Positions 14,079-55,076 of a DNA stretch of 64,000 nt are shown here, one piece after another. Source of the stretch: an uncultured Paracoccaceae bacterium (GTDB taxonomy: Bacteria > Pseudomonadota > Alphaproteobacteria > Rhodobacterales > Rhodobacteraceae). The notes below the pieces were generated by a model, which saw only the letters and a program-made list of their open reading frames with translations, was not told where the DNA came from and searched no databases. Within the stretch, counting starts at the first letter, position 1, and every line of letters begins with the position of its first letter. The translations under genes were made by a program, and so were the position numbers. Location of the stretch: the NCBI GenBank assembly GCA_947500825.1, contig CANMTR010000008.1, positions 84,607 through 148,606 on the forward strand, written 5' to 3'.

Positions 14079-14998
14079 CCCGCGCGGCTCATCAGGAGCG
14101 AGCCCAGGCCGATCAGCGCGATCCCCGCCGCCTCGGCCGGGCCGGGCGCGGTGCCGAAGAGGAGCGCCCCCCACAGGACGGCGAAGGCCAGGTAGGCGTT
14201 GTCGAACATCCCCACCAGGGGGGCCGGGGCCGACTGGTAGGCGCGTGCCACCAGGGTCGCGATGACGGCGAGGAGCACGGCGAGAAGCCCGATCAGGATC
14301 GCGTCCTCGCGCGTGACCTCGCGCCACTGGGCCAGCACGAAGCCGGTGCCGCCCGGGTGGACGAGCCCCAGCCCCGCGACCCAGGCCGCGCCCGCGACCG
14401 CGAGCACCGCGTTGAGGTTGAAGGCCATGGTCAGCGCCGCCTCGTCCCTGAGCCGCGTCTCGGTCAGGAGGGCGGCGAGGGCGTAGCACAGGGCCGCGCC
14501 CAGGGGCAGGGCGAACCAGGCGGAGGCCATGCCCGCGCCGGGGCGCAGCACCACCGCGACGCCCGCGAGGCCGAGGCCGAGCGCGCCCCAGCCGGCCCGG
14601 CCGAGGCGCCGGCCGAGCCAGGCGCGCGCCATCAGGGCCATCCACAGGGGCGCGGTGTAGAATCCCGCCGCCGCCACCGCGAAGGGCAGGACCGGCAGCG
14701 ACGCGTAGTAGAGAAACCACATGGCCGCCAGGCACAGGCTGCGCGCCGTCACCCAGCCCGGGCGGCGGGGGCGCAGGCCGGAGCGGCTGCTGGCCGAGCA
14801 GGCCAGCGCCAGCAGGAACCCCGCCGCCACCGAGCGCAGGCAGACGAGCTGGCCCAGGGCGAGCCGGTCGCCCAGGAGCTTGACCACCGAGTCCGACAGC
14901 GACAGGAGCGCCACGGCGAGGGTGATCGCGAGGATGCCCGACAGCCGTGCGCCGGGGGGAGAGGACCGAACCTCTCCGAATGCATTGATCCGTGTCAT
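14075..14998 (-). CDS. DMT-superfamily (EamA) transporter
   Basis: A 307-residue integral membrane protein with two EamA repeats and about ten hydrophobic helices. The first repeat includes LLSLSDSVVKLLGDRLALGQ and the second ends GTAPGPAEAAGIALIGLGSLL. The family exports metabolites, often amino acids, across the inner membrane; the cargo is unknown. The ATG at 14998 is the last in-frame Met before the hydrophobic start. It is divergent from a LysR regulator whose start is 69 bases away, so that regulator is a plausible controller. Confidence 0.85.
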   Translation of the reverse strand: MTRINAFGEVRSSPPGARLSGILAITLAVALLSLSDSVVKLLGDRLALGQLVCLRSVAAGFLLALACSASSRSGLRPRRPGWVTARSLCLAAMWFLYYASLPVLPFAVAAAGFYTAPLWMALMARAWLGRRLGRAGWGALGLGLAGVAVVLRPGAGMASAWFALPLGAALCYALAALLTETRLRDEAALTMAFNLNAVLAVAGAAWVAGLGLVHPGGTGFVLAQWREVTREDAILIGLLAVLLAVIATLVARAYQSAPAPLVGMFDNAYLAFAVLWGALLFGTAPGPAEAAGIALIGLGSLLMSRAG

Positions 14999-49094: not shown

Positions 49095-49682
49095 ATGAGC
49101 CTCGAGCGTCTTTCGCATATCGCGCTCGCGGGAGCGGTCCTGTCCGTCGGCCTTTGCAGCCAGGCGCGGGCGGACGGGGCCTTCGGCCAGATCGACATCG
49201 GGAAGCAGACGGTCACGGCGGTCGGTGCGGTGGAGCGCGGCGCCCTGTCGTTCGGGCTGGTGCGCTCGGACCACGAGGGGGGGCACGAGTGGAGCCTGTC
49301 CACGAGCTACCGGGTGGCGCGGCCGCGGATCTTCGGGGCGGACGGGACGGTGCGGGCGGGCGTCGTCGCCAAGGTCGATGACGCGGAGGACCTGGGCGCG
49401 GGCCTGCGGCTGACGGTGGAATCCTATCGCGCGCTCGACTGGGGCAGCGTCTTCTGGCTGGCGCAGGCGGACACGCTCGACGGCGCCTATTACGCGGGCG
49501 TCCAGGTCGGGCTGGGACAGGTGCCGATCGGGATCGGACTGGAGGCGCAGGGCGGGGACGACTGGCGCGAACGGAGCGCGGTGGTGACCTGGCGCCTGAG
49601 CGGGACGCCCGTGAGCCTGCGGCTCGGGCGGAAGTTCGAGACCGAGGAGGTCTTCGTCGGGGTGTCCGTCAACACGTTCTGA
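49095..49682 (+). CDS. Secreted small outer-membrane-barrel-like protein, unknown function
   Basis: A 195-residue protein not recognised as a named family. The signal peptide (about residues 1-26, ending LCSQARA before DG) is clear. The mature 169 residues alternate polar and apolar positions in many short strands (for example SFGLVRSDHEGGHEWSLSTS, GLRLTVESYRALDWGSVFWL) and end with an aromatic residue (VSVNTF). A C-terminal Phe is the classical BAM recognition feature of outer-membrane beta-barrels. It is convergent with the GH8 glucanase gene, 11 bases away, and sits in the polysaccharide locus. It may be the outer-membrane exit or an accessory barrel of the glucan system. Barrel nature is inferred. 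Confidence 0.6.
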   Translation: MSLERLSHIALAGAVLSVGLCSQARADGAFGQIDIGKQTVTAVGAVERGALSFGLVRSDHEGGHEWSLSTSYRVARPRIFGADGTVRAGVVAKVDDAEDLGAGLRLTVESYRALDWGSVFWLAQADTLDGAYYAGVQVGLGQVPIGIGLEAQGGDDWRERSAVVTWRLSGTPVSLRLGRKFETEEVFVGVSVNTF

Positions 49683-49693
49683 GAAGGGGCCGT

Positions 49694-50737
49694 TCAGCCC
49701 CAGCCGCGGTCGTGGCGGGCCAGGCCCGCGAGCATGTGGATCGTGGCGGGATAGTAGGGCTGGGCGGCGTCGAAGGGGGGTGCTGGCACCTCGGCCGGGG
49801 ATGCCCCCGTGGCGGCGACGAGCGCGGCCACGGCGCGGTAGCCCGGCGCCGCGCTCTCTTCCAGCACGGTACGGCCGTCGCGGGAAAGCCGAACGGGCAG
49901 GGGGCCGTCCCCGCGCGCGGCCCACGCCGTGCGGGCGGCGGTGACGGCAGGGTGACCGGCGCGGCCCGACCAGACCAGGTAGAGCGGCACCCGGATCGCC
50001 TCGTAGCCGAAATCGGCGGAGAACCCTTGCGCCGGGCGCCACCCCTCCGAGGTGACCTCGATCCAGTCGGGGACGAGCCCGTCCGTGGCGATCCCGGCGA
50101 GGAGATCCGCCATCGCCTCGGCCACCGCCGGAAGCTCGGGGTGCGCGAACGCGGCGCCCAGGTCGTGGAGCGCGAGCGGCATCAGGTAGGAGGGATTGAC
50201 GATTACGCCCCCGGCGTCGCGGAACCGCTCGGCACCGGGCAGGAGCAGGGTGCGGCCGGGACGGGAGGGGTCGGTCGCGAGCAGGATCGTCACGACCGCC
50301 CCGGCCACCTCGCGGGCACGGCGCGCGAACTCCTCCTCCCCGAAGGTGCGCGCCGCGCGGAGGAGGGCCCAGGCATAGAGCACGTCCCCGTCGGAGGCGT
50401 TGTTGTAATCCGCGACGCCCGCGCCCGGCATCCATCTCCAGGCCAGGAGCGGGTCCTGCCGGACCGCCAGATGCGCCTCTGTCCACGCGACGATGCGCCG
50501 GGCGGCATCGCGGTCGCCGTGCCAGGTCGCGAGGAGCAGCCCGTAGGCCTGTCCCTCGGAATGGCTTGCCCCGTCCTGCTCGACGTCGACCACGCGCCCT
50601 TCGGGCCGCAGGAACGCCCGCGACCATGCCTGCCAGTCCGCCATGGACCCTCCGCCGGTTTGGCCATCCTGCGCCGGCGCGGGACGCGCGGCGGCAAGGG
50701 ACGCGGCCAAGGCCAGGAAATGCCGCCGATCCATCAT
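49694..50737 (-). CDS. Glycoside hydrolase family 8 endo-glucanase
   Basis: A 347-residue enzyme. The signal peptide carries a twin-arginine-like start (MMDRRHFLALAASLAAA), suggesting Tat export. The GH8 (alpha/alpha)6 barrel shows the general acid Glu in GASHSEGQAYGLLLA (E61), WRWMPGAGVADYNNASDGD with the conserved Asp (D117), VNPSYLMPLAL, and DFGYEAIRVPLYLVWSG. GH8 includes BcsZ cellulases, licheninases and chitosanases. Next to a beta-glucan synthase it would trim or release the nascent glucan in the periplasm. AAAGGAAAG precedes ATG 50737. It is divergent from the Cache sensor. Confidence 0.88.
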   Translation of the reverse strand: MMDRRHFLALAASLAAARPAPAQDGQTGGGSMADWQAWSRAFLRPEGRVVDVEQDGASHSEGQAYGLLLATWHGDRDAARRIVAWTEAHLAVRQDPLLAWRWMPGAGVADYNNASDGDVLYAWALLRAARTFGEEEFARRAREVAGAVVTILLATDPSRPGRTLLLPGAERFRDAGGVIVNPSYLMPLALHDLGAAFAHPELPAVAEAMADLLAGIATDGLVPDWIEVTSEGWRPAQGFSADFGYEAIRVPLYLVWSGRAGHPAVTAARTAWAARGDGPLPVRLSRDGRTVLEESAAPGYRAVAALVAATGASPAEVPAPPFDAAQPYYPATIHMLAGLARHDRGWG

Positions 50738-50853
50738 GGGAACTTTCCTTTGACGCAAGGTCCGGTCCGTGTCGCGTGCTCGCCTCAAACGTGTATCTTG
50801 GTCCCGTGGATTGTGCCATTCCCGATGGCGGCCGAAAGAGAAGGAGACCCCGC

Positions 50854-51930
50854 GTGAAACGACCTCCCCTGACGCTTCCCTCGGCGCTCTACGGCCTGAT
50901 CCTGGTGGCGCTGGCGCTGTTCATCGTCGTCGGGAGCTCGCTCCTCTATGCACGGGTGCGCAGCTTTCAGGACACGGCCATGTCGGCGGCCATCGAGGCT
51001 CGCACGGCCGGCGCGGCGCAGGCCTTCGCGCAAGCCCTGGCCGCCGACTGGGACAATGTGGCGAGCATCGCCGCATCCGCCTCGATGGATGACGCCGACA
51101 CCACGCGGGCCCTTCTGGACGTGGCGTCCAACGGGGTGGACAGGGTCTCCTGGGCGGGTGTCGCGGATACGTCGGGGCGGATCGTCGCCGCGTCCGACGG
51201 ACTGCTCGAGGGCCAGGACGTCTCCGGGCGGCCATGGTTCCTGAGAGGATTGCGGGGCGACTTCGCCGGGGACGTCCACGAGGCGGTCCTGCTGCAGGAA
51301 GCGCTGGGGAGCGGTGACGATCCGCTGCGCTTCATCGACATGTCGGCGCCGATCCGGAACGCCGCCGGGGATCCGACGGGAGTCCTGGGCTTTCACATCA
51401 ACGCCGCCTGGGCGGAGACCTACCTGACGGACATGGCCCGGACCCTCGGGATGGAGCTGATCCTGGTGGGGGCGGGGGGCGATATCGTCACCTCGACGGT
51501 GCCGGACCTGCCCGACGACCTGTCGTTCCGGGGCCTCGACCTGGCGCGGATCGGCTCGTCGGGGGCGAGCTACGATGTCTGGCCGGACGGGCGGGAATAC
51601 TTCTCGTACATCCTGTCGGACGTGACCGCGGGGGACATGCCGTCGTTCGGATGGCGGCTCGTCGGCCGCATCGACCCCGCGACCTTCCTGCCGACCAGCC
51701 CGCGCGCGCTGTTCTACGCGATCCTGTCGGCGCTGGCGGCGGCGGGCCTGTCGGTGGTGATCGCCTGCGCCCTCTTCGTGGCGATGTTCCTCCGGCCGAT
51801 CGCGGCCATGTCGCTGAACGCGGAGCGGATTGCCGCGGACAGCGACGAGTACCCGATGGAGATCACCCGCACGGACGAGCTGCGCCGCCTCTCGGCGGCG
51901 CTGGCCCGGCTGCAATCGCGGGACGCCTGA
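50854..51930 (+). CDS. Cache/HAMP membrane sensor without output domain
   Basis: A 358-residue protein. First membrane helix at about 10-32, then a periplasmic dCache-like domain (about 35-280) with DTSGRIVAASDGLLEGQDVS followed by GRPWFLRGLRGDF and PIRNAAGDPTGVLGFHIN. The second helix spans about 286-313, and a HAMP region (LRPIAAMSLNAERIAADSDE, then TDELRRLSAALARLQ) ends the protein at 358. There is no kinase, GGDEF/EAL or methyl-accepting domain after HAMP. The start is GTG 50854 with AGAAGGAGA just upstream. It is divergent from GH8 (116 bases) and convergent with the GT2 synthase gene (12 bases). It might signal to the synthase through protein contact. Confidence 0.8.
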   Translation: MKRPPLTLPSALYGLILVALALFIVVGSSLLYARVRSFQDTAMSAAIEARTAGAAQAFAQALAADWDNVASIAASASMDDADTTRALLDVASNGVDRVSWAGVADTSGRIVAASDGLLEGQDVSGRPWFLRGLRGDFAGDVHEAVLLQEALGSGDDPLRFIDMSAPIRNAAGDPTGVLGFHINAAWAETYLTDMARTLGMELILVGAGGDIVTSTVPDLPDDLSFRGLDLARIGSSGASYDVWPDGREYFSYILSDVTAGDMPSFGWRLVGRIDPATFLPTSPRALFYAILSALAAAGLSVVIACALFVAMFLRPIAAMSLNAERIAADSDEYPMEITRTDELRRLSAALARLQSRDA

Positions 51931-51942
51931 GGCGGGGAGGGT

Positions 51943-53928
51943 TCAGGTGTCGCGCTCGCGGCTGAACCTCGTGCCGAGATCGGCGATCAGTCCCGCAAGG
52001 CGCACCCGCCCGGTGCCCGGTGCGGGCCCCTCGGCGTAGAGGCGGCGCAGGAGGGCCATGCGGACCGGCTGCTCCTCGACCACGAGGTGCAGTCGCGCGC
52101 CGTCCGGGAGCGTCTCCATCACGGTGGCCTCCATGTCGCCCAGCCCCGGGATCCGCAGGATGCCGCGCACCCCCCCGGCGAAGGGGCGACCGCGAATCCG
52201 CGCGGTGTCGAGGGCCAGGGAGGCCAGCCAGACCCGCGCGGGCGCGGCCCCCTCTGGCGCGAAGATCACGCGCTCGGGCGCGTCGGCCACGTGCTCCTCC
52301 CGGCGGGGCAGCTCGATGCAGGCCAGCACGGTCAGGGACAGGACGATGACGTTGTAGATCGTCCAGAACAGGATCACCGCCTTGCCCTCGCCCGCGTCGT
52401 GGTAGGCGAAGCGGTCGGAGAAGATGCCGAGGCCGAGGCCCACGACGTTCAGGGCCAGGAGCACGGCGAAGGGCGCCATCACCCACCACTGGATCACCAC
52501 CTTGCTGCGGTCGCCGCCCTTGGCCGTGACGGAGAACGGATGGCCGTGGGGCTTGAGGATGCCGGTGATCGCCGCGCGCGAGATCTGGAAGGCGCCGAGA
52601 TACTGCGTCACGTCCTTGAGAACCGGCACGACCATTCCCGGCGAGAGCAGGTTGTAGGCCAGGATCGACCAGGCGAAGTAGACGCCGAAATGGCCCAGGA
52701 CCTGCGGCAGCGGGGCCACCACGACGATGACGTTGAAGTACCAGTAGAGCAGCGGGAAGATCAGCGCCGCGATGCGGAACGGGAAGGTCATGATCCAGTA
52801 GAGCACCGAATCCGCCACGCTCCAGCGGTCGCGCAGGCGCAGCCGGTTCTGCCCCAGGGGGCCCAGCCGGCCGCGGGCGATCTGCATCAGTCCCAGGCAC
52901 CAGCGCGCCCGCTGGGTGATGTATTCCTTGAGACCCTCGGGCGCGAGCCCTTCGGTCAGGGCTTCGTTGAGATAGGCGGTCCGCCAGCCGGCCTCCTGCA
53001 AGGTGAGCGAGAGCAGGAAGTCCTCCGTCACGCTGTCGGTGGGCAGGAAGCCCACGTCCTCCACGGCCGTCCATCGCGCCACCGACGAGGTGCCGCAGCA
53101 GATCGCGATCCCCCAGCCGTCGCGGGAGGGCTGCATGTGGTCGAAGAAGAAGCGCTGCTCGTCGGGGTAGGAGCGCGCGAGGCCGAGATTGTTCTGGATC
53201 GGGTCGGCGTTGAAGAAGTGCTGCGGCGTCTGCACGAGGCCGACCTCCGGGTCGGCGAAGACCGCCAGGGTGCGCGTCAGGAAATTGCGGTGCGGGACGA
53301 AGTCGGCGTCGAGGACGGCGAAGAAGTCCGGCGCGCGTCCCTGGGCGGCCAGGCGGCGCAGGGCGTGGTTGATGTTGCCGGCCTTGGCGCCGTGGCCGTC
53401 CGGGCGGGTGACATAAGTCACCCCGCGCTCTGCGCAGTAATGGCGCAGCCACTCCCGCCGTCCGTCGTCGAGCACCATGACCTCGAAGTCGGGATAGTCG
53501 AGGGCGGCGGCGCCGACGATGGTGCGTTCGAGCACCTCGCGGCTTTCGTTGTAGGTGGCGACGAAGATCGCCACCCGGGGCGGCGGCCCGGGCGCCCACC
53601 AGTCCCGCCCGGCCTCGGCCTCGGGCGAGCGGTCGCGGAACCGCGTCATCAGGATGCCCGCCGAGACCGAGCTGAGGAACGCGCCCAGCTCCAGCGTATA
53701 CAGAAGAAGGCCGGAGACGAACCCGACGTCGAGCCCGGGGGGCGGCAGGGTCTCGGTCCCGCGCCACCACATGTAGCGGCATCCCAGGAGGATCGTCACG
53801 CCCATAAGCGCCGCGCGGTGCCAGATGCGGCGCGGATCGACCACGCCGGGAAGGATCGCGGCCATGGCGAGCACGGCCAAGACCGCCATCGCCGCCGAGC
53901 CGGTCTCGGAGAGCAGGACCGGCGGCAT
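51943..53928 (-). CDS. GT2 beta-glucan synthase (BgsA/BcsA-like)
   Basis: A 661-residue processive glycosyltransferase. N-terminal helices lie at about 12-30, 38-54 and 70-94. The GT2 domain follows: FVATYNESREVL, DDG at 154-156, DAD at 207-209, QTPQHFFN at 233-240, TED at 301-303, QRARW at 339-343. Further helices run from 370 to 535. It polymerises UDP-glucose while threading the chain through the membrane. In the tail (540-661) a PilZ-like position is degenerate: PRREEH replaces the RxxxR pair and LDTARIRG replaces D/NxSxxG. Length, tail and the preceding fusion-protein gene (TGATG overlap) match the mixed-linkage (1,3)(1,4)-beta-glucan synthase BgsA of Sinorhizobium better than BcsA; there are no bcsB or bcsC genes. 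Cellulose remains possible. Confidence 0.82.
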   Translation of the reverse strand: MPPVLLSETGSAAMAVLAVLAMAAILPGVVDPRRIWHRAALMGVTILLGCRYMWWRGTETLPPPGLDVGFVSGLLLYTLELGAFLSSVSAGILMTRFRDRSPEAEAGRDWWAPGPPPRVAIFVATYNESREVLERTIVGAAALDYPDFEVMVLDDGRREWLRHYCAERGVTYVTRPDGHGAKAGNINHALRRLAAQGRAPDFFAVLDADFVPHRNFLTRTLAVFADPEVGLVQTPQHFFNADPIQNNLGLARSYPDEQRFFFDHMQPSRDGWGIAICCGTSSVARWTAVEDVGFLPTDSVTEDFLLSLTLQEAGWRTAYLNEALTEGLAPEGLKEYITQRARWCLGLMQIARGRLGPLGQNRLRLRDRWSVADSVLYWIMTFPFRIAALIFPLLYWYFNVIVVVAPLPQVLGHFGVYFAWSILAYNLLSPGMVVPVLKDVTQYLGAFQISRAAITGILKPHGHPFSVTAKGGDRSKVVIQWWVMAPFAVLLALNVVGLGLGIFSDRFAYHDAGEGKAVILFWTIYNVIVLSLTVLACIELPRREEHVADAPERVIFAPEGAAPARVWLASLALDTARIRGRPFAGGVRGILRIPGLGDMEATVMETLPDGARLHLVVEEQPVRMALLRRLYAEGPAPGTGRVRLAGLIADLGTRFSRERDT

Positions 53929-55076
53929 CAGCCTCGCCGCAGCCAGTCGAGCGGGCGGCGCTCGAAGAAGACGCGGCCGGTGCGCCCGACGGGGCACGAC
54001 AGGTCCGGCACGCGGGCGAGGTCCGGCACCAGGAGGGCGACGTCGAACCGTTCCAGATGGGCGGCGTCGGGGCTGATCGCCAGCGTTTCGTAGACCCGGC
54101 CCGCGCCCGATCCGGCCAGCCGGGTGATCGTCCCGTCGAAGGCGCGGCCGTCCGAGGCGAGGCGAAACCGTGCCGTGTCGCCCAGGGAGAGCGTGTTGAA
54201 CACGCCCTCCGTCACCGAGAGCGTCACGAGGACCGACTCGCAGTCGACCATCCGCAGGATCGGATCGCCCCGTTCCACGTAGGTGCCGTCATCGGCGAGG
54301 ATCGCCCAGATCTGTCCGTCGCTCGGCGCGGCGAGCCCCGTCTCGGTCATCTGGCTGGTGCTGTACTGCTCCGAGCGCAGGCGGGAGGTCACGGCGGCGA
54401 GCCGGGCCTCGGCCTCGGTGATTTCGGCGGCAAGTCGGGCCCGGCGGTCGCGCAGCTCGGCGCCGCGCTGCAGCCCGAAGGCGGCATCGTTCCGCATCGC
54501 CTCGAGCGCGATCTCCAGCGTCGCGATCCGCTCCCGTGCGGTCTCGAGGCTCCAGCGCGTCGCGACATCGCCTTCGGGGGGCCGCGCCGGTCGCTCCGAG
54601 GAGAAGGTTATGCCCGTCACCTCGTCCCCGTCGGCACTGTCGGCACTGTCGATACCGTCGAGCCGGGCAAGGCGCCGCCGGGCGGCGGCCAGCATCGCCT
54701 CCAGCTCGCGGGTCCGGTCGTCGCGGACCCGGACCGTGCGGGCGTCGAGCGCGGCGATCTCGGCCGCGGTCTCCTTGGCCTGGGCATCGAGGCGTTCGAG
54801 CGCCGCGTCGGCGAACTTCTGTTCCATGACGAGGTCCTGCAGGCGGACCCGGTCGACGCGCGGATCGGCGACCTTGGCGAGCTCCTCGCCGTCCCTGACC
54901 CGGGAGCCCAGGGCGCGGCCGGTCATGGACACCTCGCCGGCCACGGGGCTGCGGATCGTGTCGAGCCGCGCGTTGATCACCGCGTCGGCGCTGGCCCCGG
55001 CCATCTGCTCGCCCACGAGGACCCAAACGGCCCCGACCAGGACGACGCCCCCCAGGATCAGTCGTTTCAGCCGCAT
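53928..55076 (-). CDS. HlyD-type membrane fusion protein of the glucan synthase operon (BgsB-like)
   Basis: A 382-residue protein. One N-terminal helix (about 5-22: RLILGGVVLVGAVWVLVGEQ), a lipoyl half (NARLDTIRSPVAGEVSMTGR), a long helical hairpin (about 75-235, rich in Ala/Arg/Glu), the second lipoyl half (GLAAPSDGQIWAILADDGTY) and a beta-barrel part. Unlike efflux adaptors it is not beside a pump but is translationally coupled (TGATG) to the GT2 synthase, the same order as bgsB-bgsA. It would guide the glucan across the periplasm. GGAGGG precedes ATG 55076. Confidence 0.82.
   Translation of the reverse strand: MRLKRLILGGVVLVGAVWVLVGEQMAGASADAVINARLDTIRSPVAGEVSMTGRALGSRVRDGEELAKVADPRVDRVRLQDLVMEQKFADAALERLDAQAKETAAEIAALDARTVRVRDDRTRELEAMLAAARRRLARLDGIDSADSADGDEVTGITFSSERPARPPEGDVATRWSLETARERIATLEIALEAMRNDAAFGLQRGAELRDRRARLAAEITEAEARLAAVTSRLRSEQYSTSQMTETGLAAPSDGQIWAILADDGTYVERGDPILRMVDCESVLVTLSVTEGVFNTLSLGDTARFRLASDGRAFDGTITRLAGSGAGRVYETLAISPDAAHLERFDVALLVPDLARVPDLSCPVGRTGRVFFERRPLDWLRRG

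Follow-up and report, generated by a model that had tools for sequence, protein, structure and literature searches.

In a 64-kb stretch of DNA (64,000 nucleotides, hereafter the window; contig positions 84607-148606) from the 3.93-Mb genome of an uncultured Paracoccaceae bacterium, we analysed a compact group of five genes at 49095-55076. They encode a glycosyltransferase family 2 (GT2) synthase, an HlyD-type adaptor, a glycoside hydrolase family 8 (GH8) enzyme, a membrane sensor and a 195-residue protein (Table 1). All five were confirmed in the places given by a first-pass annotation of the same DNA, which had read the adaptor and synthase genes as resembling bgsBA of the mixed-linkage beta-glucan system and had placed all five in a module that makes, trims, exports and senses a glucan. 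The adaptor and synthase genes were found to be coupled as that annotation had stated, the stop of the former and the start of the latter sharing TGATG in an overlap read directly from the sequence. The barrel and GH8 genes end convergently 11 bp apart, and the sensor and GT2 genes 12 bp apart. For the GH8 gene, the ATG at 50737 (or 50734) is the most probable start, as opposed to the mechanical open reading frame (ORF) start at 50788, and the GTG start of the sensor gene is preceded by a GAAGGAGA site.

Table 1. Features of the five-gene locus, in window positions
Feature	Position	Strand	Basis or remark
Predicted outer-membrane 12-stranded beta-barrel, 195 residues, ends ...VNTF	49095..49682	+	Candidate export pore
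Signal peptide of the 195-residue protein	49095..49172	+	By-eye call; helix 3-19, conserved A26-D27-G28
GH8 endoglucanase, likely periplasmic or secreted, twin-arginine-like start MMDRRHFL	49694..50737	-	PF01270
Divergent region between GH8 and sensor starts, 116 bp, possible shared promoter region (inferred)	50738..50853	.	Sequence
dCache-HAMP membrane sensor without output domain, HAMP then stop	50854..51930	+	Profile matches
GT2 processive synthase, separate clade, 661 aa	51943..53928	-	PF13641, tree
HlyD-type periplasmic adaptor, overlaps synthase start	53928..55076	-	PF13437 2.3e-14

The conservation of this arrangement was examined around relatives of the synthase. A scan of named genomes returned 51 loci, of which the 48 with 54-68% identity were used, the distant L079-L081 being kept apart; because L066 and L070 share one genome, these 48 loci represent 47 genomes. 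Neighbouring genes were located with profiles built from the window proteins. We found that the HlyD protein and the sensor were present at all 48 loci, GH8 at 40 and the 195-residue protein at 31 (in L078 with a frameshift, in the other 30 with its end intact), and that the HlyD gene lay on the synthase strand in 48/48 relatives. Some loci are cut short by the end of their contig, L064 (5.5 kb) being one, and absences there carry little weight. The commonest order, GH8> HlyD> GT2> <Cache <barrel, was seen at 18 loci; the order of the window, HlyD> GT2> <Cache GH8> <barrel, is rare and was found in a single relative (L078). We also looked for a sixth gene among 853 neighbouring ORFs of the 48 loci, chosen by a codon-position GC rule and then clustered. 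No further family emerged: outside the five, at most four free ORFs per family lay within 4 kb of the synthase, the top families being a transposase-like one (named by eye) with four and another with three. One cluster at eight loci consisted of ORFs overlapping the core genes, and larger non-module clusters occurred at up to ten loci, mostly 6-8 kb or more from the synthase. The ORF-picking rule kept HlyD at only 38 loci, GH8 at 29 and the barrel at 22, so a rarer companion could escape it.

Among 295 whole genomes of a family sample, the synthase clade (at least 57% identity) was present in 15, namely the window's own genome and 14 others. The sensor lay near the synthase in the own genome and 13 of these 14, and GH8 in the own genome and 7 of the 14, two of the others being on contigs shorter than 9 kb. 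The barrel profile matched nine of the 295 genomes, eight of them shared with the 15 synthase carriers (Fisher 4e-11), and in a class sample it matched 1 of 385 genomes, the own one. Neither the synthase clade nor the barrel was found in G066, the single congener in the family sample. In G149, the one genome where the sensor was not near the synthase, the module is split, with GH8-HlyD-GT2 on a plasmid (L128, C2) and barrel-sensor on the chromosome (L155, C1), and both halves are kept. Collectively, these data indicated that the five genes are a real conserved module whose arrangement is far from chance. Clade members were also seen on plasmids in Agrobacterium fabrum (pAt), Palleronia, Pacificitalea, S. 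indolifex and Allorhizobium, as were sister-clade members in Azospirillum and Bradyrhizobium (loci among L083-L085 and L090-L093), which suggests spread by plasmids.

The identity of the synthase was then considered. The GT2 protein matched PF13641 (4.3e-27), and the motifs LDDG, LDADF, VTEDF, QRARW and FSVTAK could be read directly; it shares with the synthase of the Bcs cellulose system (BcsABZC) the core D, D, D, QxxRW together with FxVTxK, and its residues 11-601 match BcsA structures (5ej1, 4hg6; E 1e-72). Against the cellulose synthase equivalog TIGR03030 it scored 370 bits, missing the cut-off of 699. Trees were built from 62 and then 48 of 104 prepared synthase rows; CrdS, L102 and L081 were flagged as long branches and L082 and L102 for odd composition, and the second tree was built without L081. 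In the 62-row tree the window clade comprised 28 rows (support 100/98); rows from Azospirillum and Bradyrhizobium attach to it at 100/99. BcsA formed a group of 18 rows (99/100), and BgsA of the R. etli plasmid p42e, whose product has been examined (PMC9495663), grouped with its S. meliloti counterpart, L082 and three other rows (100/99, inner branches weak). CrdS grouped with three unnamed rows (95/80). On the sequence evidence, the GT2 protein is a member of a clade separate from the cellulose, curdlan and mixed-linkage synthases. Neither of the outcomes that the first-pass annotation had named as contradicting it occurred: the synthase did not group with BcsA, and the neighbouring genes did co-occur.

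Identity with BcsA was ruled out by the missed TIGR03030 cut-off together with the lack of BcsB and of PilZ motifs. BcsB was not found in the own genome by a model search that matched 2 of 14 control genomes including E. coli, in agreement with the bcsB absence noted earlier; BcsC and BcsD were not searched. The window has an HlyD protein in the place of BcsB and a small barrel in the place of the 16-stranded BcsC. None of the 48 clade rows has the PilZ motifs RxxxR and (D/N)x(S/A)xxG at the corresponding site; two matches in the clade (L037, L044) sit at non-homologous places. The motifs were kept in 4 of 5 sister-clade rows and in 33 of 36 scored BcsA-group rows.

The relation to BgsBA required closer weighing. 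If the locus were a divergent bgsBA locus, it would make mixed-linkage beta-glucan under cyclic di-GMP (c-di-GMP) control, and the other genes would be accessory. The HlyD and GT2 genes indeed have the same order and overlap as in BgsBA of S. meliloti and R. etli; BcsB is lacking in the own genome; BgsA likewise has a C-terminal domain without PilZ motifs; and the clade shares with BgsA a Q at the position of CrdS 237 and an R at that of CrdS 270. When the clade was forced together with the two BgsA rows, however, the log-likelihood fell by 79 units and the union was rejected by the approximately unbiased (AU) test (p-AU 4e-75). Identities to BgsBA are 38% for GT2 and 26% for HlyD, and the GH8, sensor and barrel of the module were not found in 17.7-kb stretches of R. 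etli and S. meliloti. The c-di-GMP residues of the BgsA C terminus are given as R599 and H615 (PMC5567048); in the window and 47 relatives the R599 column was gapped in 48/48 rows, the BgsA loop that carries this residue being absent, and the H615 column never held His (R in 46), in a region of loose alignment. Three channel-entrance positions also differ from BgsA, and the same genome carries a separate BgsA-group synthase with PilZ and HlyD. Taken together, these results ruled out the BgsBA identity proposed in the first-pass annotation, so that a mixed-linkage product cannot be read from homology, and we regard even a divergent bgsBA locus as unlikely. The other synthase lies on the same contig (C8:24818-26593, L082:9801-11921), about 58 kb before the window and 110 kb from the window GT2; it has 47% identity to the S. 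meliloti row and a PilZ match above the cut-off, is directly preceded by an HlyD gene of its own, and is a better candidate than the window GT2 for a BgsBA-like system in this organism. In a record of S. meliloti Ak57 pSymA (CP090105.1, L089), bgsBA adjoins a gene annotated as a sensor domain-containing diguanylate cyclase.

We also compared the clade with the curdlan system CrdASC of Agrobacterium, since the locus could alternatively be a sister of crdASC that encodes a curdlan-like (1,3-beta-glucan) synthase. The plasmid GT2 L087 was taken as CrdS, all ten residues used from PMC6821405 falling on the stated letters. Both systems have a GT2 of about 655 aa without PilZ motif and an HlyD-like neighbour (the gene before CrdS holds a weak HlyD-type match), and 1 of 120 listed relatives was named curdlan synthase by its source. 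Placement of the clade as sister to CrdS alone was 8 log units lower and was not rejected (p-AU 0.069), although the 62-row tree did not recover a grouping with CrdS. Against this, CrdS groups with other rows, the identity is 37-38%, and the channel entrance differs. The CrdS entrance residues are Q237, Q259, K270, H374, W422, E439 and H442 (PMC6821405); only Q237 and Q259 are kept in the clade, which has R, D, mostly L/I, D and Q at the others (L062 was excluded from these counts and from those for R599 and H615). The positions 374/439/442, which PMC6821405 counts among the proposed determinants of linkage, hold D in 47/47, D in 46/47 and Q in 47/47 clade rows, with D, D, Q in the window; they hold H, E, H in CrdS, P, S/T, G in BgsA and N/S, E, E in the BcsA group. 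For this reason no product class was assigned to the clade. Two synthase clades without known function are reported in the same source (PMC6821405). No CrdC relative was found in the own genome, in a search without positive control, and one crd-like locus examined gave no Cache, GH8 or barrel match. We consider the curdlan explanation slightly less probable than that of a divergent bgsBA locus.

A further likeness was found in plasmid loci of A. fabrum C58 (pAt), Azospirillum and Bradyrhizobium barranii, which have HlyD-GT2-Cache with a GT2 of the same or the sister clade (46-58% identity); unlike in the window, neither GH8 nor the barrel was matched there. In the open-licence literature we found no published description of these loci or of a window-type locus.

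As first proposed, the glycoside hydrolase of the module belongs to GH8 (PF01270, 150 bits, E 1e-43, cut-off 24), with 6vc5 and 1wzz as its best solved relatives. It scored 143 bits against the BcsZ model (cut-off 299), and no other GH8 match was found in the own genome; a GH8 is also present in the Bcs system. An RRx[FL] motif stands ahead of the GH8 domain in 29 of the 39 relatives examined. Residues were counted with five duplicate loci excluded and the Bcs-type GH8 of L094 included: E59, which we take to mark the column of the conserved catalytic Glu, and D116 were present in 46/46 ungapped rows. At residue 244 (window 50000-50002), presumably the column of the catalytic Asp base, the window has Glu, and the 46 rows have Asp in 41 and Glu in 3. 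Glu for Asp in this YDA(I/L)R motif may change the activity.

The sensor matched dCache_1 and HAMP in Pfam, both below the cut-off, and its predicted fold contains a double Cache domain. The sensors are diverse (23 to 48% identity to that of the window), and at 48/48 loci no output domain was found, with at most 56 residues behind the profile; the description of an output-less sensor thus extends to all relatives.

For the 195-residue protein there was no Pfam or NCBIfam match at E 1. AlphaFold confidently predicted a 12-stranded barrel whose nearest folds are the oligosaccharide porins KdgM, NanC and VhGalP, in line with the earlier barrel-like guess; the terminal Phe pointed out at the same time is present, and the family ends in Asn-Thr-Phe/Tyr (NTF/NTY) in 35/35 aligned rows. 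The in/out alternation of hydropathy was not reached in 2000 shuffles, and the lining is rich in Gly/Ser/Thr (K+R 9%). Among 35 family members none matched KdgM in Pfam at E 0.1; OMP_b-brl and YaiO were each matched once, at E 0.02-0.03. Sequence links to solved structures (NspA, E 0.0033 over 85 positions; an antibody chain, E 0.53) were not used.

These folds raise another explanation. KdgM-type sugar channels import. The locus might accordingly serve uptake or recycling, in which GH8 would make oligosaccharides, the KdgM-like barrel would import them and the sensor would report them, with export from the synthase going through another pore. This would fit the shared strand of the barrel and sensor genes at 25 of 31 loci, their continued pairing in G149, and the 16 of 47 synthase genomes in which a whole-genome search found no barrel. 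The predicted barrel differs from the sugar channels in its 6-9% identity, its Arg/Lys-poor lining and its position with a synthase. Against the uptake explanation, no family beyond the five genes recurs within 4 kb, and the barrel is otherwise nearly confined to synthase genomes or found near other synthases. Members of the barrel family lie near a different GT2 (633-670 aa) in G291 (divergent neighbour), G686 (6.7 kb away) and G693 (2.6 kb away). In G686 (L169) the open frame adjoining the barrel gene holds a GH5 cellulase, with SpoIIE phosphatase, STAS and HATPase genes around it; G693 (L170) has a HAMP-SpoIIE phosphatase, two DUF3131 proteins and OpgC, and G291 (L154) a HATPase gene. These are perhaps glucan loci under partner-switch control. 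They support a general association of the barrel with GT2 glucan machines; since a window-type synthase (L060, L038) is present in G686 and G693 as well, these two are not independent of it. We regard the uptake explanation as a minor possibility.

On balance we lean towards the view that this conserved module, built around a synthase of a separate clade, makes and secretes a beta-glucan. In it, GT2 would build the chain from UDP-glucose and extrude it through the channel that the enzyme itself forms in the membrane. Passage over the periplasm would fall to the HlyD adaptor, and exit across the outer membrane to the 12-stranded barrel. Cutting or trimming of chains in the periplasm would be the task of GH8. 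The dCache-HAMP sensor would respond to a small periplasmic ligand and influence the synthase complex through direct contact, replacing c-di-GMP binding to a PilZ domain. With channel-entrance residues of its own, neither PilZ motifs nor the c-di-GMP site of BgsA, and an output-less sensor, we read the system as a fourth class of synthase-dependent beta-glucan secretion. Substrate, linkage, route and sensor action are inferred here, and the barrel and dCache folds are predicted. Of the first-pass reading, the compact glucan-type module was supported by co-occurrence, the predicted barrel and the output-less sensor, and its BgsBA identity fell with the tree and the AU test.

Several observations weigh against this proposal. 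The barrel-less genomes count most against an indispensable pore; L031, L032 and L077, whose synthases are closest to that of the window, are among them. Of the 17 loci without the barrel, one has it elsewhere in the genome, and no alternative outer-membrane gene recurs at these 17 loci. Another channel may serve in the barrel-less genomes, or else the barrel could be dispensable or do something other than export. The synthase-dependent pores PgaA and BcsC are described as having 16 strands (PMC9384988), and other polymer pathways as using 18-stranded barrels (PMC9603273). We judge it improbable, somewhat more so than a curdlan-like locus, that the barrel is no pore but works in the outer membrane as an enzyme or anchor (like OMPLA, LpxR or Wzi), holding or modifying a surface polymer. 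In L078, the relative with the window gene order, the frameshifted barrel gene lies at 14238-14915, and its nearest relatives are without the barrel. It looks as if the subclade were losing the barrel.

A bolder form of the fourth-class reading, which we hold only tentatively and think unlikely, is a bacterial beta-glucan secretion machine with a D-D-Q entrance code of its own, possibly a product that differs from cellulose, curdlan and known mixed-linkage glucan, gating from the periplasm by an output-less dCache-HAMP subunit instead of c-di-GMP, and an unusually small 12-stranded export pore.

In summary, the module recurs around one distinct synthase branch in dozens of alphaproteobacterial genomes. 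CrdA and CrdC are described as proteins of unknown function (PMC10819609), and BgsB is called only likely involved in forming a channel (PMC9495663). The outer-membrane crossing of HlyD-type beta-glucan systems (mixed-linkage, curdlan) thus looks unsettled, and the module supplies a concrete candidate for it, in cultured strains. The clade adds a further residue state at positions thought to set linkage. Finally, it offers a natural case of an output-less sensor beside a synthase without the c-di-GMP motifs that most sisters keep, which makes direct control of the synthase by the sensor testable.

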